Source of the DNA: an uncultured Bacteroidales bacterium
Lineage (GTDB): Bacteria > Bacteroidota > Bacteroidia > Bacteroidales > Paludibacteraceae
DNA: 52,179 nucleotides
Assembly: GCA_902782665.1 (NCBI GenBank)
Contig: CACZOA010000091.1
Span: 1 to 52,179, forward strand
Direction: 5' to 3'
Position numbers and translations under genes: made by a program. Numbering within the stretch: the first letter of the stretch is position 1; each line of letters begins with the position of its first letter. The notes under the pieces are model-generated. The model worked only from the letters and a program-made list of their open reading frames with translations, searched no databases and was not told the origin of the DNA. This document shows positions 5,974 to 41,844 of this stretch, in pieces.

Positions 5974-7581
5974 ATGGTAAAAAAATATGATTTTCTCGTT
6001 ATCGGTTCAGGTATAGCCGGAATGAGTTTTGCACTAAAAGTGGCATCAAAGGGCAAAGTGGCATTGCTTTGTAAAACGGATATGATAGAAGCGAACACGA
6101 ATTTTGCCCAGGGTGGAATCTGCTGTGTCATGAAAGAGGACGACAAGTTTGAGAACCACATCAAGGACACTCTTATTGCAGGAGACGGAATTTGCGATTA
6201 TAATGTAGTGAAGAAGGTTGTTGAGGGAGCACCTGAGCAGATCAAGGAATTGGTGAAGTGGGGTGTTGATTTCGACAAGAACGAGGATGGCAAGTATGAC
6301 CTTCACAAAGAGGGAGGCCATGACAATTTCCGTATCCTTCATCATAAAGACAACACTGGAGCTGAGATTCAGGAGAGTCTTGTGGAGACGGTGAAGAAGC
6401 ATCCAAATATCGATGTGATGGAGAACCATTTCGCAATCGAGCTCCTTACACAGCATCATTTGGGCATGTTGGTTAAGCATACCACTCCAAACATTGATTG
6501 CTACGGAGCTTATGTGCTTGATATAAAGAAAAACTGTGTGGATACATATTTGGCAAAGATAACAATGGTCTGCACAGGTGGTATCGGAAATATCTACCAG
6601 ACAACAACAAACCCACCAGTAGCTACAGGTGACGGAATATCAATGGTTTACCGTGCCAAGGGTTTGGTTGAGGATATGGAATTTGTCCAGTTCCACCCGA
6701 CAAGTCTTTACCATCCTGGAGATCGTCCATCCTACTTGATCACAGAGGCTATGCGTGGTTATGGTGGAATCTTGCGTAATAAGAAAGGTGAGGATTTCAT
6801 GCTTCGTTACGACTCAAGAGGAAGTCTTGCCCCACGTGACATAGTGGCGCGAAGCATCGACACAGAGATGAAGTTGACGGGAGTGGATCACGTCTACCTT
6901 GACGTCACACACAAGGATCCAGAGGAGACAAAGAAGCATTTCCCAAATATCTACCAGAAGTGTTTGAGTATCGGTATCGACATCACAAAGGAGTATATCC
7001 CTGTATGTCCGGCATCACACTATCTATGTGGAGGAATCAAGGTTGACGAGAATGCACGCACTACAATCAACCATCTGTATGCAGCTGGAGAGTGTACACG
7101 TACAGGTTTGCACGGTGGTAACCGATTGGCATCCAACTCGTTGCTTGAGGCAATCGTTTATGCTGATGCTGCAGCCAAACATTCGCTTCCGTTGATCGAC
7201 AATATCAACTGGTGTGATGAGATTCCTGAGTGGAATGACGAAGGCACAACACTAAATGAGGAGATGGTGCTTATCACACAGAGTGAGAAGGAGGTTAACC
7301 AGATCATGCAGGCATACGTAGGTATCGTCCGTTCTAACCTTCGTCTAAAGAGAGCGTTCGACAGATTGGAGTTGATCTACAAAGAGACAGAAAGTTTGTT
7401 CCAGCGTTCTGTAGTGTCAAAAGAGATCTGTGAGCTTCGTAACATCGTCAACACAGCATATTTGGTGATCAAGTCTGCAATGCAGAGAAAAGAGAGCCGT
7501 GGTTTGCATTACACAATTGATTATCCTAAGAAAAACGAGCATATCAGTTTGTATGACGTTGAGGAGTTGAAGAAATTGTAA
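5974..7581 (+). CDS. nadB: L-aspartate oxidase (NadB)
   Basis: A 535-residue flavoprotein of the succinate dehydrogenase/fumarate reductase flavoprotein group. NadB oxidises L-aspartate to iminoaspartate, the first step of de novo NAD synthesis. The FAD-binding GSGIAGM motif is at residues 11-17, followed by the NTNFAQGGICCV substrate/FAD loop. EFVQFHPTSLY, APRDIVARSID, ASHYLCGGIKVDE and GLHGGNRLASNSLLEAIV are the conserved active-site and FAD-contact segments. It is distinguished from succinate dehydrogenase subunit A by its length and by the aspartate-oxidase-like N-terminus and C-terminal helices. NadA and NadC are not in this window. A hairpin terminator follows immediately. Confidence 0.93.
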   Translation: MVKKYDFLVIGSGIAGMSFALKVASKGKVALLCKTDMIEANTNFAQGGICCVMKEDDKFENHIKDTLIAGDGICDYNVVKKVVEGAPEQIKELVKWGVDFDKNEDGKYDLHKEGGHDNFRILHHKDNTGAEIQESLVETVKKHPNIDVMENHFAIELLTQHHLGMLVKHTTPNIDCYGAYVLDIKKNCVDTYLAKITMVCTGGIGNIYQTTTNPPVATGDGISMVYRAKGLVEDMEFVQFHPTSLYHPGDRPSYLITEAMRGYGGILRNKKGEDFMLRYDSRGSLAPRDIVARSIDTEMKLTGVDHVYLDVTHKDPEETKKHFPNIYQKCLSIGIDITKEYIPVCPASHYLCGGIKVDENARTTINHLYAAGECTRTGLHGGNRLASNSLLEAIVYADAAAKHSLPLIDNINWCDEIPEWNDEGTTLNEEMVLITQSEKEVNQIMQAYVGIVRSNLRLKRAFDRLELIYKETESLFQRSVVSKEICELRNIVNTAYLVIKSAMQRKESRGLHYTIDYPKKNEHISLYDVEELKKL

Positions 7582-7588
7582 TTTATAA

Positions 7589-7622
7589 ATGCGAAATGCT
7601 AAATTATCGTTTCGCATTTTTG
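7589..7622 (+). terminator. terminator after nadB
   Basis: ATGCGAAA and TTTCGCAT pair around a 13-base loop and are followed by TTTTTG. The loop contains TGCTAAATTAT, a word that also fills the loop of the terminator at 33681. Confidence 0.7.
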
Positions 7623-7648
7623 TAGAGACGCACGGTCGTGCGTCTAAC
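7622..7648 (+). repeat. GTAGAGACG-type inverted repeat
   Basis: GTAGAGACGCAC and GTGCGTCTAAC face each other across GGTC. This belongs to the class of dispersed hairpins beginning GTAGAGACG found in many Bacteroidota and cyanobacteria. A 24-base near-identical copy (22/24) lies inside the next coding region at 8073-8096. Confidence 0.8.
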
Positions 7649-7692
7649 AACCGACGTGTGCAACCAATGGTCGTGCATAACCATAAAGAATC

Positions 7693-7722
7693 GTAGAGAC
7701 GGGGTTTGTCCCCGTCTTTATT
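7693..7722 (+). repeat. second GTAGAGACG-type hairpin, terminator-like
   Basis: GTAGAGACGGGG-TTTG-TCCCCGTCTTTATTTT: a strong GC stem followed by a T-rich tail, so it may also stop transcription between nadB and the oxidoreductase. Confidence 0.65.
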
Positions 7723-7787
7723 TTAATAAAAACACAGAGAAGAAGAGAATCACGGAGATCTGTGTCTCTGTGGTAAAAATATTCAAA

Positions 7788-9344
7788 ATGAAGAGAGTGT
7801 GTATAATTGGATCGGGTGTGGCTGGTATGACGTGTGGAATCCATTTGCAGAAAAGTGGTTTTCAGACAGTCATCTATGAGAGTGGCATGACGCCTGGTGG
7901 ATTATGCACAGGGTGGAGCAGAGGCGGATATTCGTTCAACGGCTGTATGCATTGGCTGTTGGGGGCAGAGAAAGGCATATCATTCAATACGATGTGGAAT
8001 GAAATTGTTGATCTGTCGCAGATTGAATTTGTTGATCATAAAGAACGTGTCCAATTTGAGGTTAAATCCCACGTAGAGACGCACGTCCGTGCGTCTGACA
8101 TGACCGACAAATATGGCTCCAACATTTTCCATTTTTATAACAAAACCGACGATTTTGAAAAATATCTGTTGGACATTGCTCCCGAGGATGCCACGCTGAT
8201 AAAGAAATGGATGGCGTGTGTGAGAGGATTGAATAAGTTTCAAGAAATATTGCCTCCTGTGATTGCAGACGACGCGAGTGTTTGGCAGAAAATCAAGTTT
8301 TGGGGTGGCAAGATGACTGTCAGGATGCATCAGTTGGGATTTCATTTTATGAGATACCGTCTGGCTGGCATTATGAAAGGCACTACCCACACGTTTGCAG
8401 AGCGTTTCAAATCTCCGTTTTTACGTGAGGCGATACGTAATCTTTATGAAAAAGAGATGTCGATGAATCTGCTCTGTTTTGTGCAGAGTTACGCTGATTT
8501 AGGAGTGGCGCAATATCCCAAGGGTGGATCGGAGGCGTTTGCCAAATTGTTGGCTGATAGCTATTTGAAATCGGGAGGAACGATCAAATATAATTCCAGA
8601 GTAGATAAAATTATTGTAGACGACGGTGCTCATAAAGCTAAAGGTATCCAGCTGAAGAATGGAGAATTTTGTGAGGCTGATTATGTGGTGTCTGCAGCCG
8701 ATTGGCATTGGACGATGTTTGATGCACTCGGTGAGAGATATATCCCGTCGGACATGATGAAATACAGGAATATTGCGGATAGCGACGTCTACTATTCTTA
8801 TTGCATACTTTATTTGGGAGTGAAAGATGGAATGAAGCAACATCCTCATTTCCTTCGTTTCTACACTGATCCGTATTCATTGCCGGATGGAACACAGTTT
8901 GACAAAATGGAGGTCCATATCTACAACTATGATGAGACTCTTGCCGGTGACGACAAGTGTACAATCGCAGTCTATTTCCAGACGCAAAACGGTGGCTATT
9001 GGATAGATAAACGAGAGAATGACAGAAGTGGCTATGATGCTGTAAAGAAGCAGTTTACTGCTTTGGCAATCGAGAAACTGGTGGAACATTTTGGTGAGGA
9101 TTTCAGGGATAAAATAGAGGTTTCTGATCTTACAACACCTGCCTCATACCATCGTTATACCAATAATTACAATGGCTCGTCGCAGGGATGGATGCCAATG
9201 GTCGGCCGACGAAGTTTCGGAAAAGTGCGTAATGTGAGCAACGTCTTCCTTTGCGGACATTGGACGATTCCAGGCGGAGGGTTACCGATTGCGTTGAAGA
9301 GTGGAAGAGACGTGGCAAGAAAAATTAAAAACAATACGTGTTGA
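7788..9344 (+). CDS. FAD-dependent oxidoreductase, phytoene-desaturase (CrtI)-like
   Basis: A 518-residue two-dinucleotide-binding-domain flavoprotein. The N-terminal RVCIIGSGVAGMTCG is the FAD Rossmann motif, GGLCTGWSRGGYSFNGC continues the CrtI/carotenoid-isomerase-like pattern, YPKGGSEAFAKLL lies mid-protein, and LCGHWTIPGGGLPIALKSGRDVA is the typical C-terminal FAD-contacting segment. The substrate cannot be read; Bacteroidales members of this family are generally uncharacterised, and carotenoid genes are absent here. The ATG at 7788 is chosen because the frame upstream (from 7638) runs through hairpin repeats and has no family resemblance. Codons 96-103 (VETHVRAS) are encoded by an in-frame 24-base hairpin repeat, see findings. 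Confidence 0.82.
   Translation: MKRVCIIGSGVAGMTCGIHLQKSGFQTVIYESGMTPGGLCTGWSRGGYSFNGCMHWLLGAEKGISFNTMWNEIVDLSQIEFVDHKERVQFEVKSHVETHVRASDMTDKYGSNIFHFYNKTDDFEKYLLDIAPEDATLIKKWMACVRGLNKFQEILPPVIADDASVWQKIKFWGGKMTVRMHQLGFHFMRYRLAGIMKGTTHTFAERFKSPFLREAIRNLYEKEMSMNLLCFVQSYADLGVAQYPKGGSEAFAKLLADSYLKSGGTIKYNSRVDKIIVDDGAHKAKGIQLKNGEFCEADYVVSAADWHWTMFDALGERYIPSDMMKYRNIADSDVYYSYCILYLGVKDGMKQHPHFLRFYTDPYSLPDGTQFDKMEVHIYNYDETLAGDDKCTIAVYFQTQNGGYWIDKRENDRSGYDAVKKQFTALAIEKLVEHFGEDFRDKIEVSDLTTPASYHRYTNNYNGSSQGWMPMVGRRSFGKVRNVSNVFLCGHWTIPGGGLPIALKSGRDVARKIKNNTC
8073..8096 (+). repeat. GTAGAGACG-type repeat inside a coding sequence
   Basis: Twenty-four bases, GTAGAGACGCAC followed by GTCCGTGCGTCT, match the intergenic copy at 7622-7645 at 22 of 24 positions. 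It is exactly eight codons and preserves the reading frame of the oxidoreductase. Confidence 0.85.
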
Positions 9345-33740: not shown

Positions 33741-34010
33741 TTAATCAAATAGGAGGAGTGCGAGTAAAATTGTCACGAAACTGATTATCCAAGTGATTAT
33801 AAGTAATTCTATGGAATTTAGAAGCGGGTCTGATTCTTCAGTGCGTTTATAGTAAAATTTGTATATCAGGAAATAAAGTATAGCTATGACAGCAGAGATT
33901 AGTAAGAAAGCGTATTCAAAATCCAACATGGAAAATACATGTAAAGCAATGATGTTTAGAGTCAATGCGATAAATGTAAAATAAAATATGGCAGTTTTGA
34001 ATTTTTTCAT
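33741..34010 (-). CDS. small three-helix membrane protein, paralogue 2
   Basis: An 89-residue protein with three hydrophobic helices (about 8-27, 31-50 and 68-88). The loop KFYYKRTEESDPLLNSIELLIITWIIS matches the next gene upstream (34040-34342) at most positions (K-x-YY-x-RTEES-x-x-L-x-x-SI-x-x-x-ITW-x-IS). No known family was recognised. Both lie on the minus strand 29 bases apart and are probably co-transcribed. Confidence 0.65.
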   Translation of the reverse strand: MKKFKTAIFYFTFIALTLNIIALHVFSMLDFEYAFLLISAVIAILYFLIYKFYYKRTEESDPLLNSIELLIITWIISFVTILLALLLFD

Positions 34011-34039
34011 AAATGTAGAACCATAAATAAAATGCTAAA

Positions 34040-34342
34040 TTATTTTAGTTCTCCGCAACTAACTAACCATACTATGAAAAAGAACCCAGATATTGCTGCA
34101 GTGATAATACTAATCAACCATGTTATGACAAATAGTATTATTGAACGAATGAGTTTGTTGGACTCTTCTGTGCGATCGTAATAATATTTATCGATTATAT
34201 AATATAGTATAACTATGCTCAAAAGTGCATTTATAATTAGAAAATCTTCTTTAGATAAAGCTGCAGAAAAGGGTAAAATTATTAATGCTATCACGATAGC
34301 TATGAAAGTTAGCAGTGGTAGAGCTGTCCAGAAATTTTTCAT
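34040..34342 (-). CDS. small three-helix membrane protein, paralogue 1
   Basis: A 100-residue protein with the same three-helix layout and the shared motif DKYYYDRTEESNKLIRSIILFVITWLIS. It extends about ten residues further at the C-terminus (FFIVWLVSCGELK). It is the upstream member of the tandem pair, and shares an MKxF start with its neighbour. No function can be assigned. Confidence 0.65.
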   Translation of the reverse strand: MKNFWTALPLLTFIAIVIALIILPFSAALSKEDFLIINALLSIVILYYIIDKYYYDRTEESNKLIRSIILFVITWLISIITAAISGFFFIVWLVSCGELK

Positions 34343-35802: not shown

Positions 35803-36930
35803 ATGAAAGTTCTGCAAATATCAAATTACTATTATCCTTTGGTTGGAGGTACGCAGGCCACTTGCCAATATTTGTCGGAAGGCATAAAGGACGAATATGA
35901 TGTGCATGTAGTGGCATTCAGCGAAGATAAAGAGGATAAGGAAGAAGAACATAATGGGGTAAAGGTAAGCAAAGCCGGAGTTTTTTTGATGTTGCTTCGT
36001 CAGAGTTTATCATTTTCATACTATAAATTACTCAAGAAGTATATCTTAGAGTGGAAGCCTGATATTATTCATTTCCATCATCCCAATCCGTTTGTGATGG
36101 CGTTGATGTTGAGGCTTATTCCAGATGATGTAAAGCTTTATGTCCATTACCATCTAGACGTCACAGCACAGAAAGTCATGTATCAGTTTATCAAAGGCAT
36201 TGAGAGAAAGATGCTTGAGAGAGCTGATATGATTGCCACTACTTCAGAAAACTATAAGAAGTCGTCTCCTGTGTTGAAGGATTTCCAGGACAAGACGGTG
36301 GTGCTTGCGAGTGCGATTGACATTGCTAAGTATGATTTGCAGCCTGGTGAGCAGGAAAAAGTTGAAAAAATCAAGTTGGCGGCATGTGGAAAGAAGATCG
36401 TTTTCCATGCGGGAAGACACGTCCGTCATAAAGGCTTGGAAGATCTGATTGAAGCAGAGAAACTGATCAAATCAGATTGTGTGATATATGTTGGAGGTGA
36501 TGGTCCGACGACGGATGAGATGATGCAGTTGGCTAAATTCTCCGATAGAATACGATTCTTAGGTAGAATGAATGATTCTGACTTGCGTTGTTATTACCAT
36601 GCAGCGGATGTGTTTGCGTTCCCATCATACACTAAAGCCGAAGGTTTCGGACTTACTCTTGCTGAGGCTATGTATTGCGGTACTCCTGCTGTGACATATA
36701 CAATCGAGGGAAGTGGAGTTAACTGGGTATGTCCGAATGGAGAGACAGGACTTGAAGTGCCAAACAGAGATGTTGAGGCATATGCGGCTGCAATAGATAG
36801 ATTGCTTCAGGATGACGAGTTGCGCAAGCAGTTGTCGGAGAACGCAAGAAGCCGTGTCGTCACATTGTTCACAATCCAGAAGGAGGTTGAGACATTGAAA
36901 GAGCAATATGCGATGTTGCTAAATAAATGA
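35803..36930 (+). CDS. GT4-family glycosyltransferase
   Basis: A 375-residue GT-B fold retaining glycosyltransferase. The N-terminal MKVLQISNYYYPLVGGTQATCQYL has the glycine-rich acceptor loop, IIHFHHPNP and VHYHLDVTAQK are typical, and the donor-side motif ADVFAFPSYTKAEGFGLTLAEAMYCGTPAVTY contains the E-x7-E nucleotide-sugar site. No transmembrane helix is present, so it is cytosolic or peripheral. Substrates are probably cell-surface glycan or lipid intermediates; there is no polysaccharide cluster around it. The ATG at 35803 is chosen because it follows AAAGATA and gives the canonical first strand; an in-frame ATG at 35776 is possible. A strong terminator follows. Confidence 0.88.
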   Translation: MKVLQISNYYYPLVGGTQATCQYLSEGIKDEYDVHVVAFSEDKEDKEEEHNGVKVSKAGVFLMLLRQSLSFSYYKLLKKYILEWKPDIIHFHHPNPFVMALMLRLIPDDVKLYVHYHLDVTAQKVMYQFIKGIERKMLERADMIATTSENYKKSSPVLKDFQDKTVVLASAIDIAKYDLQPGEQEKVEKIKLAACGKKIVFHAGRHVRHKGLEDLIEAEKLIKSDCVIYVGGDGPTTDEMMQLAKFSDRIRFLGRMNDSDLRCYYHAADVFAFPSYTKAEGFGLTLAEAMYCGTPAVTYTIEGSGVNWVCPNGETGLEVPNRDVEAYAAAIDRLLQDDELRKQLSENARSRVVTLFTIQKEVETLKEQYAMLLNK

Positions 36931-36991
36931 TAATTGCTAAATTCGAAATGCTAAATTGATTTTTCATTTTGCATTTGTAATTTATAATTCT

Positions 36992-37025
36992 AAAAAGACG
37001 GGGATTTGTCCCTGTCTTTTTTTTG
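36992..37025 (+). terminator. terminator after the glycosyltransferase gene
   Basis: AAAAAGACGGGGA-TTTG-TCCCTGTCTTTTTTTT, a 13-pair stem with one G-T pair and a T8 tail. Confidence 0.88.
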
Positions 37026-37065
37026 TTTTAAGGATTTACATATTTAGAAATCCAGAACTAATTGT

Positions 37066-37073
37066 TAGATTTG
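37066..37073 (+). promoter_or_regulatory. putative -7 element of the half-kinase operon
   Basis: TAGATTTG, 42 bases before the ATG at 37116, matches TAnnTTTG. A clear -33 TTTG is not seen. Confidence 0.5.
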
Positions 37074-37115
37074 TAAGAAATTAAATCGATACAATCGAAA
37101 TTAAAAACATTTGTT

Positions 37116-37934
37116 ATGAACATGCAGGCTCTACAACAAGATACGCTTCTAAAAGGCGGTGCATATAGAATTGAGAAAATCATAGGTCGGAGTGATTTTG
37201 AAATCACTTATCTTTCTGATAAATACGGAAGTGACAAGAACGTGGTGATTACAGAGTTTTTTATGAGGGATCTCTGTGGACGTGACGGAAACAAAATGAC
37301 TTATGGCACGGATGTTAGTAATGATGTCATTCAGGCACGAGATAAGTTCAAAAAGGAAGCCGAAAATCTGAAATCACAAGCGTCACAACGTGTCTTTGAT
37401 GTTTTTGAGGAGAATGATACCGTATACTATGTAAAGGAATATGAAGGCGACGGTGCGATTGATACCGTACATGATGATTTTAGCAAATCTGATGGCTCTG
37501 AACATGGGGAAAAAGAAACTGCCAAGTCATCATTGTTGAGTAAACTCAAATGGCCATTTATCTTTATAGCTGTTTTTGGCGTGGCATATTATTTTATGAC
37601 ATCTGAGCCAATTTCTAAGACAGAAAATACTGTTCATTCAGAAAAGTCTGAAAAGAAGGTAGAACAGAGAAAGGAAGAGAAGATGGTGGTGAAAGAGAAG
37701 GCAGTCAAAGTGGAGAAGGAGAGTGCTGCGTTTGCCTCGCTTATGGAGAAGATGAGCAAGGTAAAGAAAGATGCATTGTCAATCCCTGGGGTCAGTCAAC
37801 ATAAGGTTTTAACTGAACTTTCTAATGTTAAGGATGAATTTGAGAAGACCAAGTCAAAGTTGTCTGCCGACGAGCAGGAGAGATTCCACAAAGCTTTTCA
37901 GGAAGTGATAGAAATAGTTAAGAAACGATCTTGA
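37116..37934 (+). CDS. membrane protein with a kinase N-lobe-only (pseudokinase) domain
   Basis: A 272-residue protein. Residues 10-115 follow the N-lobe of Bacteroidota Ser/Thr kinases: LLKGGAYRIEKIIGRSDFEITYLS, then VVITEFFMRDLCGRDGNK, KFKKEAENL and VFDVFEENDTVYYVKEYEGDG (the hinge). The glycine-rich loop has lost most glycines (GRSDFE for GQGGFG), and the ATP-anchoring Lys of the VAIKEFF motif is Thr46. After the hinge there is no catalytic loop or DFG. Instead come a linker, one transmembrane helix (about 146-162) and a Lys/Glu-rich coiled-coil domain outside the cytoplasm (165-272). It cannot be an active kinase. It is the first gene of a two-gene operon with a related protein 12 bases downstream. 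Confidence 0.75.
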   Translation: MNMQALQQDTLLKGGAYRIEKIIGRSDFEITYLSDKYGSDKNVVITEFFMRDLCGRDGNKMTYGTDVSNDVIQARDKFKKEAENLKSQASQRVFDVFEENDTVYYVKEYEGDGAIDTVHDDFSKSDGSEHGEKETAKSSLLSKLKWPFIFIAVFGVAYYFMTSEPISKTENTVHSEKSEKKVEQRKEEKMVVKEKAVKVEKESAAFASLMEKMSKVKKDALSIPGVSQHKVLTELSNVKDEFEKTKSKLSADEQERFHKAFQEVIEIVKKRS

Positions 37935-37946
37935 TATTTGTTGATT

Positions 37947-38975
37947 ATGTATGCGTTACAAGCCAATACAATCCTGGCTCAAGGAAAATATAGAATATTA
38001 AGAGTCATAGAAGAAGGCAGTTTAGAAATAACGTATCTGGCTGTATATAACGCTGGGTTAAATTATAATAATGCATATAATAAGGTTGTCATTAAGGAGT
38101 TTTTCATAAAGGATTTGTGCGGTCGCAGCCGAAGGACGAATGATGTCATATTTACGGCAAATGATGTCCGTGCTGATTTTAATCAGATGCGCAATACGTT
38201 TTTGTATGACGCGAACAAAAATAAGGATGTTATAGACACGTTTAAAGAGAATGGTACAGCATATTATGTGAAGAAGTATATTGAGAATGAGGTATTTGAC
38301 ACGTTTGGCAATCAAACGCAAAGTGATGCTAATGGTTCTGAATTAATGAAGAAGGATTTGGAATCATCCTTCTCTAACAATGAAGGAAAGACTCAGTATT
38401 TCACGTCGGAGAAGATTAAGACGATTGCCAAATTTGGTATGATTGCATTTCTTGTCATTTTTGTGGTGCATTATTGGGTTGGTCAAGATGATGATAAGCT
38501 TGATGACGACTACACATTTCAGTCTAAAAACAGCAATGATATCAGTAGGAATATCAAAAGTGATGATGGCGGAGATGTGACAGTTGATAGTGTTGACGTT
38601 TTTGAAAAAAATGTGACGAAAGTCGTAATGTCAGATGACGTCTCATTTGTTGTAAAGGCAGATAGTATTGTGACATTAGGAAATAAATTCAGATTGACGT
38701 ATACTCTCAACAATGCAGAGTCTGACAATTTACAGCTGCCTATTGAGTCGATGCCGTCAGACTTAACTATAGCGCATGGCCCATATGTCTCGACCGGTAA
38801 ATCAATTTCGATCAAAGACGGAGTTGAACATAGATCGTCATCTGTTACTTATGGTTATATGTTGGTTCCGAAAAAAGAAGGATTAATCATAATACCGTCA
38901 GCAAAGGCTGTTTTGAATGATGGTAAGGTATTGCAATCAAATACGTTGGAGATAAATGTGGTTAAGGGAGATTGA
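37947..38975 (+). CDS. kinase N-lobe / transmembrane / BatD-like domain fusion protein
   Basis: A 342-residue protein. Residues 5-115 again match a kinase N-lobe (ILAQGKYRILRVIEEGSLEITYLA, VVIKEFFIKDLCGR, FKENGTAYYVKKYI). Here the VAIK Lys is kept (Lys50), but the Gly loop is degenerate and no C-lobe exists. A helix at 161-177 crosses the membrane. Residues about 228-340 resemble the first repeat of BatD (oxygen-tolerance domain): VVMSDDVSFVVKADSIVTLGNKFRLTYTLNN, GPYVSTGKSISIKDG, SSVTYGYMLVPKKEGLIIIPSAKA, LQSNTLEINVVKG. BatD is normally part of the batA-E aerotolerance operon, which is not here. The ATG at 37947 is preferred over a TTG at 37938. Confidence 0.75.
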   Translation: MYALQANTILAQGKYRILRVIEEGSLEITYLAVYNAGLNYNNAYNKVVIKEFFIKDLCGRSRRTNDVIFTANDVRADFNQMRNTFLYDANKNKDVIDTFKENGTAYYVKKYIENEVFDTFGNQTQSDANGSELMKKDLESSFSNNEGKTQYFTSEKIKTIAKFGMIAFLVIFVVHYWVGQDDDKLDDDYTFQSKNSNDISRNIKSDDGGDVTVDSVDVFEKNVTKVVMSDDVSFVVKADSIVTLGNKFRLTYTLNNAESDNLQLPIESMPSDLTIAHGPYVSTGKSISIKDGVEHRSSSVTYGYMLVPKKEGLIIIPSAKAVLNDGKVLQSNTLEINVVKGD

Positions 38976-39029
38976 TAAGAAGTTAAATTTAGCATTTATC
39001 ATTTCTCATTTATAATTTCATTCATATTT

Positions 39030-39067
39030 CCCCTCTGTCGGATTTTGGATTCTCCACCGACAGGGGG
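39030..39067. repeat. inverted repeat upstream of gyrA
   Basis: CCCCTCTGTCGG and CCGACAGGGGG pair with one bulged T around a 15-base loop. It lies about 55 bases after the half-kinase operon and may stop its transcript, although no T-run follows. Confidence 0.55.
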
Positions 39068-39098
39068 TGGATTTTTATCCTTGCGTTGAAAATAGGCG

Positions 39099-39106
39099 TA
39101 TTTTTG
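39099..39106 (+). promoter_or_regulatory. possible -7 element of gyrA
   Basis: TATTTTTG followed by TGCG, 123 bases before the ATG; a TTG at 39081 is closer than the usual -33 spacing. A CGTGC...GCACG inverted repeat at 39162-39181 would sit in the leader. Confidence 0.4.
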
Positions 39107-39228
39107 TGCGAAAAATTGCGTATGTTGGTAAAAAATGCTATTTTTACAATATTATTTTGACCGTGCGTCTGTGGATGCACGTCTCTTGTGATAGAAAATA
39201 ACAAAAAAAATAAATACAACAAAGAATT

Positions 39229-41844
39229 ATGGCAGACGGTAGAATAATCCCAGTCAATATTGACGACGAAATGCGTACGTCGTATATTGACTATGCTATG
39301 TCCGTTATTGTGGCTCGTGCCTTGCCAGATGTGCGTGACGGTTTCAAACCGGTTCACCGCCGTGTTATGTACGGTATGAACGAGCTTAACATTACACATG
39401 ACAAACCGACAAAGAAGTGTGCACGTATCGTGGGAGAGGTAATGGGTAAGTACCACCCTCATGGTGACAGTTCTGTGTATGGAGCGCTTGTAAGAATGGC
39501 TCAGGAGTGGAATATGCGTTACACTCTTGTGGACAAACAAGGAAACTTTGGTAGTGTCGACGGTGATGGACCAGCCGCAATGCGTTACACTGAGGCTCGT
39601 CTAGACAAGATCTCCGACACTATGCTTGTGGATATAGAGAAGGATACAGTCGATTTTGTAGACAATTTCGACGGTGAGTATCAGGAACCTACAGTTCTGC
39701 CTACTCGTATTCCTAATTTGATTATCAACGGTGCTTCTGGTATCGCGGTAGGTATGGCTACAAATATGCCTACACACAACTTGAGCGATACTCTTGATGC
39801 TGTTGTCGCTTATGTGGAAAATCCAGACATCGATCCTGAAGACTTGATCAAGATCATCAAGGCTCCAGATTTCCCAACAGGTGGTATCATCTGTGGATAT
39901 GATGGTGTTAAGGATGCGTACTTGACTGGTCGTGGACGTATCGTCATCAAGTCGCGTACAGAGATTGAGACAGAAGACAACCGTGAGAAGATCGTCGTTA
40001 CAGAGATCCCTTACCAGGTGAATAAGCGTGAGTTGATTGAGCAGATCGCTGATTTGGTGAAGGATGGCAAGATAGAAGGAATCTCAAACATCAATGATGA
40101 GTCGGATGGTGAGGTCGGTACACGTATCGTTATCGACATCAAGAGAGACGCTAACTCAAATGTGGTGCTCAACAAGTTGATGAAGATGAGCCAGCTTCAG
40201 AGCTCATTCAGCGTGAACAGCATCGCATTGGTTAATGGACGCCCTCGTCTGCTTACATTGAAGGATCAGATAGCAGAGTTTGCAAAGTTCAGAATGGAGG
40301 TCGTCACACGTCGTACTCAATTTGAACTTAAGGAGGCTCAGAAGAGAGCTCACATCTTGAAGGGTAGAATCATCGCCGTCGACAATATCGAGCAGGTGAT
40401 CAGTATTATCCGAAGCAGTGAGACTGCAGCTATCGCAATCCAAAGATTACAGGTTGAGCTTCCAGAGCCACTTGATGAGATCCAGGCAAAGGATATCGTT
40501 GAGATGCGATTGAGAGCGTTGACAGGTTTGGAAATCGACAAGTTGAAGGCTGAGTTTGATGAGGTTATGAAGTTGATCGCACATTTGGAGGCCGTTTTGG
40601 CAAGTGAAGAGATGCGTCGCGACATCATCAAGGCTGAGCTTCTTGAGATCAAGGAGAAGTATGGCGACGAGAGACGTACAGAGATCGATTATGCCGGTGC
40701 TTCATTCAATCCTGAGGATTTCTATGCCGACGACGAGATGGTCATCACAATCTCACATCTTGGTTACGTTAAGTCTACTCCGCTTGCTGAGTACAAGACT
40801 CAGGGAAGAGGAGGTGTCGGATCAAAGGCCAGCAACTCAAGAGATGAGGATTTCATCGAATATATCTATCAGGCTTCAATGCACGACACATTGCTATTGT
40901 TCTCTCAGAAAGGACGCTGCTATTGGCTTCGTGTATACGAGATACAGCCAGGTGCCAAGAACTCTAAGGGTAGAGCATTGCAGAACCTTATCCAGCTTGA
41001 TTCCGACGACAGAATCAACGCATTCGTTAAGGTGCGTGGCTTGAACGACAAGGAATATGTTAACTCTCACTATTTGATCTTCTGTACAAAGCAGGGAGTT
41101 GTGAAGAGAACATTGCTTGAGCAGTATTCTCGTCCTCGTACAAATGGAGTCAATGCAATCACTATCCGTGAAGACGACGAGGTAATCAATGTATCGTTGA
41201 CAGACGGAAAGAGTGATGTTATCATCGCCAGCCGTAACGGTCGTGCGGTTCGTTTCAGAGAGGATTCTGGTGATCTACGTCCACTTGGTAGAACAGCTAC
41301 AGGAGTACGTGGAATGACGCTTGATGAGGATGATCCAACAGATAGAGTAGTAGGTATGGTATGTGTTGAGAAGAATTCGCCAGAGACATTGCTTGTTGTT
41401 TCAGAGAATGGATTCGGAAAACGTTCATACCTAGACGACCGTGATGAGAACGGCAATATTATCATGGATGAAGACGGTAATCCAGCTACATTGTACCGTA
41501 TCACTAAGCGAGGAGCTAAGGGAGTACGTACATTGAATGTGACAGAGAAGACAGGTAAACTAGTTGCAATCCAAGCTGTTACTGATGATAACGACTTGAT
41601 GATCATCAATACATCTGGTATCGCAATCAGATTGAAGATATCTGATACTAGAGTTCTTGGTCGTGCTGCTCAGGGAGTCCGCTTGATCAACTTGACAAAG
41701 AAAAACGATGTTATTGCTTCTGTATGTAAGGTTTCTGCTGAGGAAGAAGAGGAAGAGAATCCTGAAATGGAAGGTGAAACATCAAATGTTGAGGGTGGAG
41801 AAGTAGTAGATAACGGTGCTGTTGAGGCTACAACAGAGGAATAA
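39229..41844 (+). CDS. gyrA: DNA gyrase subunit A
   Basis: An 871-residue type IIA topoisomerase subunit that cuts and rejoins DNA. The N-terminal [45 protein letters not shown] is canonical, the catalytic Tyr is residue 120 in [10 protein letters not shown], and the quinolone-resistance region reads [15 protein letters not shown] (Ser81 and Gly85 at E. coli positions 83 and 87). The C-terminal beta-pinwheel contains the GyrA-box-like QGRGGVG motif, which supports gyrase rather than topoisomerase IV ParC. The last 35 residues are a strongly acidic tail ([13 protein letters not shown]...). gyrB is not adjacent, as is usual in this phylum. Confidence 0.96.

Follow-up and report, generated by a model that had tools for sequence, protein, structure and literature searches.

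The window (the whole stretch of DNA analysed, 52,179 nucleotides) carries two adjacent genes on the forward strand, here termed A and B, which are flanked by a glycosyltransferase gene upstream and gyrA downstream. Both open reading frames lie at the positions given in the original prediction. Each encodes a protein in which a kinase N-lobe-like domain is followed by a hydrophobic segment and a C-terminal domain of its own type (Table 1). Two starts are available for protein B, a TTG at 37938 giving 345 aa and an ATG at 37947 giving 342 aa; the ATG aligns with the Met at residue 3 of A in an alignment of the A and B N-lobes, and the TTG lies behind a gap of 3 bases after the stop codon of A. 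Four terminator-like sites were found in the region 36900-39300 against a mean of 1.1 in shuffled sequences, and the hairpins on either side of A and B suggest that the two genes form a separate transcription unit. The sequence TAGATTTG at 37066-37073, a match to the Bacteroidota promoter motif, was rejected as a candidate promoter since matches of its kind occur at chance level.

Table 1. Features of the A/B locus, with positions counted from the first nucleotide of the window.
Feature	Position	Strand	Description
Terminator-like hairpin	36992..37021	+	between the upstream glycosyltransferase gene and A
Protein A	37116..37934	+	272 aa, ATG at 37116; kinase domain reduced to the N-lobe, then a single hydrophobic segment and a helical C-terminal domain
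A, kinase N-lobe-like domain	37125..37445	+	residues 4-110, beta1 to hinge; beta3 Lys replaced by Thr, gatekeeper Met replaced by Lys
A, hydrophobic (putative TM) segment	37554..37613	+	about residues 147-166; best 19-residue mean 1.53, modest
A, C-terminal helical domain	37641..37925	+	residues 176-270; related to the small lipoprotein-like protein G000:C29
Protein B	37938..38975	+	kinase domain reduced to the N-lobe, then a single TM segment and a BatD domain
B, kinase N-lobe-like domain	37953..38291	+	residues 3-115, counted from the ATG; beta3 Lys retained, Asp in place of the alphaC Glu, Lys as gatekeeper
B, TM segment	38424..38480	+	about residues 160-178 of the ATG form; best 19-residue mean 2.02, strong
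B, BatD Ig-like domain (PF13584)	38661..38960	+	E 4e-16; 59.9 bits against a cut-off of 24.1
Terminator-like hairpin	39053..39071	+	after B, before gyrA

Homology to the kinase N-lobe was assessed using an HMM built from 40 kinase N-lobes, with neither A nor B included. The HMM gave 80.6 bits (E 6.8e-24) for the window's A and 69.4 bits (E 2e-20) for B, bearing out the original prediction that both proteins carry kinase N-lobe motifs, and it also matched the A proteins of other genomes of the genus at E 2.4e-23 (G008), 7.9e-18 (G005) and 2.5e-16 (G001). Chance similarity to kinases was rejected on the basis of 1200 shuffled sequences, which reached E 0.082 at best; among the window's other stop-to-stop frames of at least 60 aa, the top score was 3.8 bits. 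This was further confirmed in searches in the opposite direction, with residues 1-121 of A matching two-lobed kinases from two other genera of the family (E 2.9e-6 to 1.9e-10) and a profile of five A/B N-lobes matching kinases of the order with E-values down to 9.9e-27. A profile-profile comparison of the half-kinase set with five kinases gave a probability of 99.9 over columns 2-111, its E-value of 3.8e-31 referring to a single pair and not being equal to a database E-value. In both A and B the alignment to kinases covers about 110 residues, spanning beta1 to the hinge and ending there. No kinase family was matched by A or B up to E 10 in Pfam and NCBIfam, and PADLOC kinase models gave weak matches to A and B (1.2e-4 and 1.2e-3). 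Neither of two PDB sequence searches returned a kinase-domain match, the best entry being an antibody chain (E 0.46) in one and the best entries (E 1.1) in the other being of focal adhesion kinase, aligned to the BatD part of B. As judged from these sequence comparisons, the homology of A and B is visible against near kinases and not against general models, the weak PADLOC matches excepted. A phylogeny of 46 N-lobes placed A and B on one branch that excluded all 40 kinases, with support values of 93/86 that fall just below the 95 mark of the tree tool. We regard a kinase N-lobe ancestry of both A and B as nearly certain.

The similarity to kinases is restricted to this lobe. Neither open reading frame has a C-lobe, HRD or DFG segment after the hinge, as had been claimed, and no separate C-lobe gene was found in the window's own genome (87.7% complete). 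Residues of the N-lobe were compared in a joint alignment of seven A, two B and 40 kinases. The beta3 Lys, present in 40/40 kinases, is Thr in 7/7 A and kept in 2/2 B, and the third Gly of the loop, a Gly in 34/40 kinases, is Glu in all nine A and B sequences. The alphaC Glu is kept in the A proteins of G000 and G008 (2/7) and is Asp in the other five as well as in B, and the gatekeeper, which is Met in 39/40 kinases, is Lys in every A (7/7) and B (2/2). The HPNIV-like stretch leading from helix C to beta4 is shortened or absent in both proteins, as seen in the HMM alignment. The claim that both Gly loops had been lost holds for the GxGxxG pattern, which is gone in A and B, but not for each residue of it, since the first Gly persists in the window's A and the second in B; the full set of GxGxxG loop, beta3 Lys and alphaC Glu is present in neither. 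Most of the ATP-site residues are lost in A, and since B retains the beta3 Lys, loss of nucleotide binding is less certain for B. In kinases, both the HPNIV-like stretch and the gatekeeper residue point towards the C-lobe or the ATP site, so that their changes look like an adaptation to life without a C-lobe, and the gatekeeper and alphaC-beta4 changes together fit a lobe living alone. It is very likely that A and B are not kinases, and as they lack the two-lobed build of kinases and pseudokinases, they are filed outside both families, as half-pseudokinases.

The membrane segments were called from hydropathy (Table 1), in accordance with the transmembrane helix that had been predicted behind each N-lobe. 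As the place of a BatD domain is outside the cytosol, the two proteins probably have their N-terminus inside and their C-terminus outside; the flanking charges agree with this topology for B, where a Lys precedes and an Asp follows the TM segment, and hardly discriminate for A, being hardly asymmetric around its hydrophobic segment. The BatD domain of B is 56% identical to domain 1 of the BatD encoded in the same genome, a protein of 613 aa without any kinase part, which is encoded on contig C23 after VWA-like and TPR-like genes (both by eye). The identity of B to the first BatD domain was 55-57% in seven of eight genomes of the genus and 45% in G006, the most divergent. B does not show the full BatD architecture within a Bat operon and has a single BatD domain behind a TM anchor. 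Bat proteins have been proposed to form a membrane complex, the function of which is unsettled (PMC3557215). The C-terminal domain of A is related to a protein of 122-125 aa encoded in the same genomes, lipoprotein-like by eye. This similarity is weak at the level of single sequences (29% identity, E 1.9e-4), and an HMM of seven lipoprotein-like proteins reached 1e-7 to 1.3e-6 for three A proteins, the best of 900 shuffled sequences giving 0.017. The BatD domain of B, the lipoprotein-like C-terminal domain of A and the beta3 Lys of B had all been overlooked in the original prediction.

Among nine genomes of the genus (the window's own, G000, and G001 to G008), A was found in seven (G000-G005 and G008) and was not found in G006 (91% complete) or G007 (78%). 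B was found in three (G000, G001 and G008, there as two contig-end pieces), so the two-gene pair, recurrence of which had been proposed as a check, is not obligatory. Two additional records, L041 and L042, bring no further evidence, since they probably duplicate the assemblies G001 and G008. The dN/dS of the A N-lobe, computed for seven of the 21 possible pairs, was 0.05, 0.09 and 0.16 for the closely related pairs G000-G008, G001-G003 and G001-G002, and 0.14-0.20 in four pairs with dS 1.0-1.5, where the ratios are rough since such values are near saturation. The N-lobe of A is under purifying selection, and ratios this low speak against a pseudogene for A. Its linkers evolve fast, with values of 0.51 for linker plus TM segment (G000-G008) and 0.47 for the outer linker (G000-G005). 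For B, the sole pair computed was nearly identical (dS 0.01), making its ratio of 0.78 uninformative on selection. A frameshift in this strain or an assembly split of a normal full-length kinase, the objection that had been raised against the half-kinase interpretation from the start, was ruled out, as A has no inner stop in any of the seven genomes, its N-lobe is selected, and the listed frames of the region hold no C-lobe.

The surroundings of A vary between genomes. The glycosyltransferase gene upstream and gyrA downstream were both seen in G000, G001, G003 and G004. In G005, gyrA lies downstream of A with a different gene upstream, and in G002 and G008 the glycosyltransferase gene lies upstream, with the contig of G008 ending and that of G002 continuing through unrelated frames for about 5 kb after A, gyrA not being reached. 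This places gyrA in view beside the A locus in five of the seven A-bearing genomes. A different gene, a 168-aa frame, adjoins A in place of B in G002, G003 and G004; its G003 copy had no match in Pfam or PADLOC. Between G000 and G001, dS was 0.44 for gyrA, 0.68 for the glycosyltransferase gene, 0.01 for B and 1.2 for A. The DNA identity of the two genomes, about 0.64-0.80 in A and 0.99-1.0 in B, shows steps near 37850 and 39050 and drops after the latter. Given the dS contrast and the identity steps, B seems to have been recently exchanged between species and A to exist as divergent alleles. These features could speak for a variable spot under conflict, where species swap alleles and the N-lobe acts against a kinase toxin or phage kinase, either as a decoy or as an immunity component; A and B also match the PADLOC kinase PD-T4-6 weakly. 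This match could, however, be obtained from any kinase N-lobe, there was no other PADLOC match among the four proteins scanned and no PHROGs match better than 0.08 among the three proteins scanned, and the selection acting on the N-lobe of A is purifying, not diversifying, so that we consider an origin in conflict unlikely.

The original prediction first suggested that A and B sense or inhibit as half-kinases by docking on a real kinase or phosphatase, here taken as a Hanks kinase or PP2C. A conserved full kinase nearby had been proposed as a check; in the window, the genes next to A and B are the glycosyltransferase gene and gyrA, and neither is a kinase gene. The kinases available for docking were surveyed with PF00069, which in a control matched 12 of 14 known genomes and exceeded its cut-off in eight of them. 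No protein exceeded the cut-off in four of the seven A-bearing genomes, namely G000 (87.7% complete), G001 (99%), G002 (97%) and G008 (64%); considering the completeness, this absence is soft for G000 and firmer for G001 and G002. In G000, the only PF00069 match covers 34 positions (E 0.13) of a 258-aa protein that is presumably a Kdo-kinase-like enzyme. The three remaining A-bearing genomes (G003, G004 and G005) and G006 do hold a protein over the cut-off, those of G003-G005 looking by eye to be of other types, unlike the A/B N-lobe, and searches of the nine genomes of the genus with the N-lobe matched A and B only. Although docking can point to HipS, which matches N-subdomain 1 of HipA and inhibits the HipT kinase (PMC10627512), the idea that A and B act on a real kinase is weakened by the four A-bearing genomes in which no Hanks kinase exceeded the cut-off, and docking of this kind appears quite improbable.

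Decay of a receptor kinase after loss of its C-lobe could account for the degraded catalytic positions and for the presence of B in few genomes. It would leave unexplained the seven A copies free of inner stops and the two paralogues with different outer domains, and the N-lobe dN/dS of 0.05-0.20 in seven pairs largely refutes it for A, which makes a pair of remnants very doubtful. Most improbable is a split kinase whose fold is completed by a C-lobe made elsewhere, as in the composite HipA of Legionella, where lpg2379/lpg2380 (PMC9758233) provides a precedent, given that A is without the beta3 Lys and that the own genome (87.7% complete) offers no more than the short, weak PF00069 match mentioned above.

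Closest in sequence to A and B are Bacteroidota Hanks-type Ser/Thr kinases with a VAIKEFF N-lobe (such as L059, L060 and L061), which are alike in N-lobe sequence (best E 9.9e-27 with the profile of A/B N-lobes). Some of these also carry a hydrophobic segment behind the kinase domain (by eye), as A and B do, but they have a C-lobe, a Gly loop and the beta3 Lys, whereas A and B end at the hinge. Reuse of half a kinase is also known from the KIND domain (PMC3934834, PMC11231147), which is a C-lobe alone and so the reverse of the A/B case. KIND is likewise employed non-catalytically; it occurs in animal proteins such as Spire, while A and B are bacterial and have the N-lobe. EssB/YukC and MviN resemble A and B in that a membrane-spanning protein carries, as a scaffold, a kinase domain with degraded catalytic features, and the Gly loop of EssB is degraded as in A and B; they are, however, described as whole pseudokinase domains (PMC12599244), and neither A nor B gave a YukC/EssB or MviN family match up to E 10 (Pfam, and for YukC/EssB also NCBIfam). 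HipS and lpg2379, the latter called a kinase N-lobe, are N-terminal-half kinase pieces made as proteins of their own, like A and B (PMC10627512, PMC9758233). HipBST and the split HipA are of the HipA type with the rest of the kinase encoded next door, a neighbour that A and B are without, and HipS is an additional subdomain and not a Hanks N-lobe (PMC10627512). Among the titles and abstract openings listed from the open-licence PubMed Central literature, which is without most subscription journals, no Hanks-type N-lobe-only bacterial protein was found, the nearest case being the HipA-type N-lobe gene lpg2379.

The best remaining reading is the second possibility contained in the original prediction, reuse of the N-lobe as an interaction fold, of which the ancestry stands by homology and the fold and the partner are what we infer. 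On the sequence evidence as a whole, single-pass envelope proteins would have retained the N-lobe as a module for binding, perhaps for dimerisation, and not for catalysis, and we assign this explanation a probability of about 0.5. A and B would be single-pass inner-membrane proteins with the N-terminus inside, and their cytosolic part would represent a Bacteroidota Hanks kinase N-lobe after loss of the entire C-lobe, a loss expected to remove kinase activity. The N-lobe would be retained as a folded protein-binding module, and that it is selected as such seems somewhat probable. Its likeliest use may be self-association or association of A with B, by analogy with the back-to-back pairing of other kinase domains. 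In PknB the back-to-back dimer is made by the N-lobe. Back-to-back dimers are described for the receptor kinase PknB (PMC6333020) and for the MviN pseudokinase, whose family constraints cluster in the N-lobe, at the dimer interface (PMC12599244). Pairing through a retained N-lobe would not require the C-lobe, although dimerisation specifically is a tentative assignment resting on this analogy. The outer parts, related to BatD in B and to the lipoprotein-like protein in A, may place the cytosolic module at the machinery they bind or couple it to that machinery, and pairing of A and B would then bring together whatever the BatD-like and lipoprotein-like domains bind.

In a more general form, the Hanks N-lobe may exist in bacteria as a domain on its own, mirroring KIND, that has been remodelled and serves as the cytosolic coupling module of single-pass envelope proteins with outer parts akin to resident envelope genes such as BatD, a proposal we put just short of even odds. 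The remodelling in a stand-alone N-lobe of this kind would comprise the gatekeeper change from Met to Lys, the cut alphaC-beta4 stretch and the erased ATP site. The two lobes of kinases are usually regarded as one folding and functional unit. A selected lone N-lobe would, if confirmed, mean that the small lobe can fold and bind by itself, just as KIND demonstrates for the large lobe, and the N-lobe's own contribution could then be tested directly with a small natural protein. A and B would also show how envelope proteins can be assembled, with a cytosolic module paired with relatives of resident periplasmic domains.

The occurrence of such proteins beyond the genus was surveyed in samples of genomes from the family, order and phylum that overlap one another. 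In the family sample 13 of 358 genomes matched; seven are the A-bearing genomes of the genus, five encode two-lobed kinases, and the last, G187, has a 59-aa frame. The order sample gave matches in 20 of 393 genomes: the window's own, G534, G282 (taken as spurious) and 17 whose kinase or pseudokinase has both lobes. Matches in the phylum sample (19 of 395 genomes) fell at 39 places outside the own genome; the 27 places inspected all have a C-lobe, degenerate in some, and L105 and 11 others lie in frames of at least 417 aa. Whole pseudokinases, as judged by eye, were present among the matches (L069, L108, L112 and L120). Several short frames were considered as further half-kinases and rejected as they contain a C-lobe, namely L145 (352 aa), L137 (424 aa), L061 (408 aa), L123 (424 aa) and a 312-aa frame of G022 (L056 and L057). 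L082 (81 aa) was set aside because its frame runs off the contig end, and L077 (284 aa), in which an N-lobe was not recognisable by eye, was taken as spurious. The short matches include L140, a 59-aa frame.

One further N-lobe-only protein was found in these samples, in G534, a genome from another family. It has 324 aa and starts with an N-lobe; a linker and, by eye, several hydrophobic segments come next, and there is no C-lobe. It was matched at 7.2e-15 by the A/B N-lobe profile and at 1.5e-20 by the kinase N-lobe HMM; its beta3 Lys is replaced by Ile, but it retains the alphaC Glu and two Gly of the loop. It was found in one of five genomes of its family, on an 8.2-kb contig of a genome that is 71% complete. 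In the tree of 46 N-lobes it stood apart from A and B, with 0 of 200 bootstrap trees placing it one change away from them. Its branch is very long and its placement unsure, and the stand-alone N-lobe may have arisen once or more than once, in the genus of the window and in G534.

A phage origin of the N-lobe was not found in a scan of viral contigs with the N-lobe profile, which confirmed 0 of 131 pattern matches, and B matched two of 50,697 phage records, both through its BatD part only. With A as query, 18 of 72,556 plasmid records matched, 14 of which are annotated as Ser/Thr or protein kinases. Three plasmid matches considered as half-kinases (H3, H8 and H13, two labelled beta-helix and one unannotated) proved to be two-lobed kinases, and a fourth (H12, from Deinococcus) is a kinase broken into several short frames.

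The spot that holds A, the first of the window's two adjacent N-lobe-only membrane proteins, seems to be variable between genomes. A 168-aa frame lies next to A in three genomes of the genus (G002-G004), with at least three longer, unrelated frames beyond it in G002. A relative of A's outer part, a 122-aa lipoprotein-like protein, is conserved within the genus; its comparison with Pfam gave no convincing family (best 0.0073, below cut-off).

Features by locus.
Feature	Location	Strand	Remark
168-aa frame after A	L030 2316-2819 (G003)		likewise L029, L031; L150 for G002
122-aa lipoprotein-like protein	L003 (G000:C29), frame end at 1785
Second N-lobe-only protein, 324 aa	L094 (G534:C75) 6940-7914	-
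Tandem pair of small membrane proteins (89 aa, 100 aa)	Window 33741-34342	-	by eye
Kinase array	G572:C24		L061, L079, L083
Kinase array	G022:C22		L052, L056
Kinase array	G1001:C43		L135, L142, L145, L147
Kinase over several short frames	L127 1504-1983		Deinococcus psychrotolerans plasmid

The second N-lobe-only protein comes from a different family within the same order as the window and, by eye, has several C-terminal hydrophobic segments rather than one. The two tandem small membrane proteins of the window resemble each other, also by eye.

Elsewhere in the Bacteroidales, the contigs of the kinase arrays in the table each carry a row of three or four Hanks kinases, and in G022 a PP2C-like gene was also seen there by eye. 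Full-length pseudokinases, judged by eye from their two-lobe length and degraded HRD and DFG motifs, were found in distant members of the phylum (loci L108, L112, L115, L116, L117 and L120). On Deinococcus plasmids, the short kinase frames of L127 are annotated as hypothetical proteins; in L128 and L148, proteins annotated solely as beta-helix repeat proteins begin with a complete two-lobed kinase domain, and a PP2C gene adjoins.
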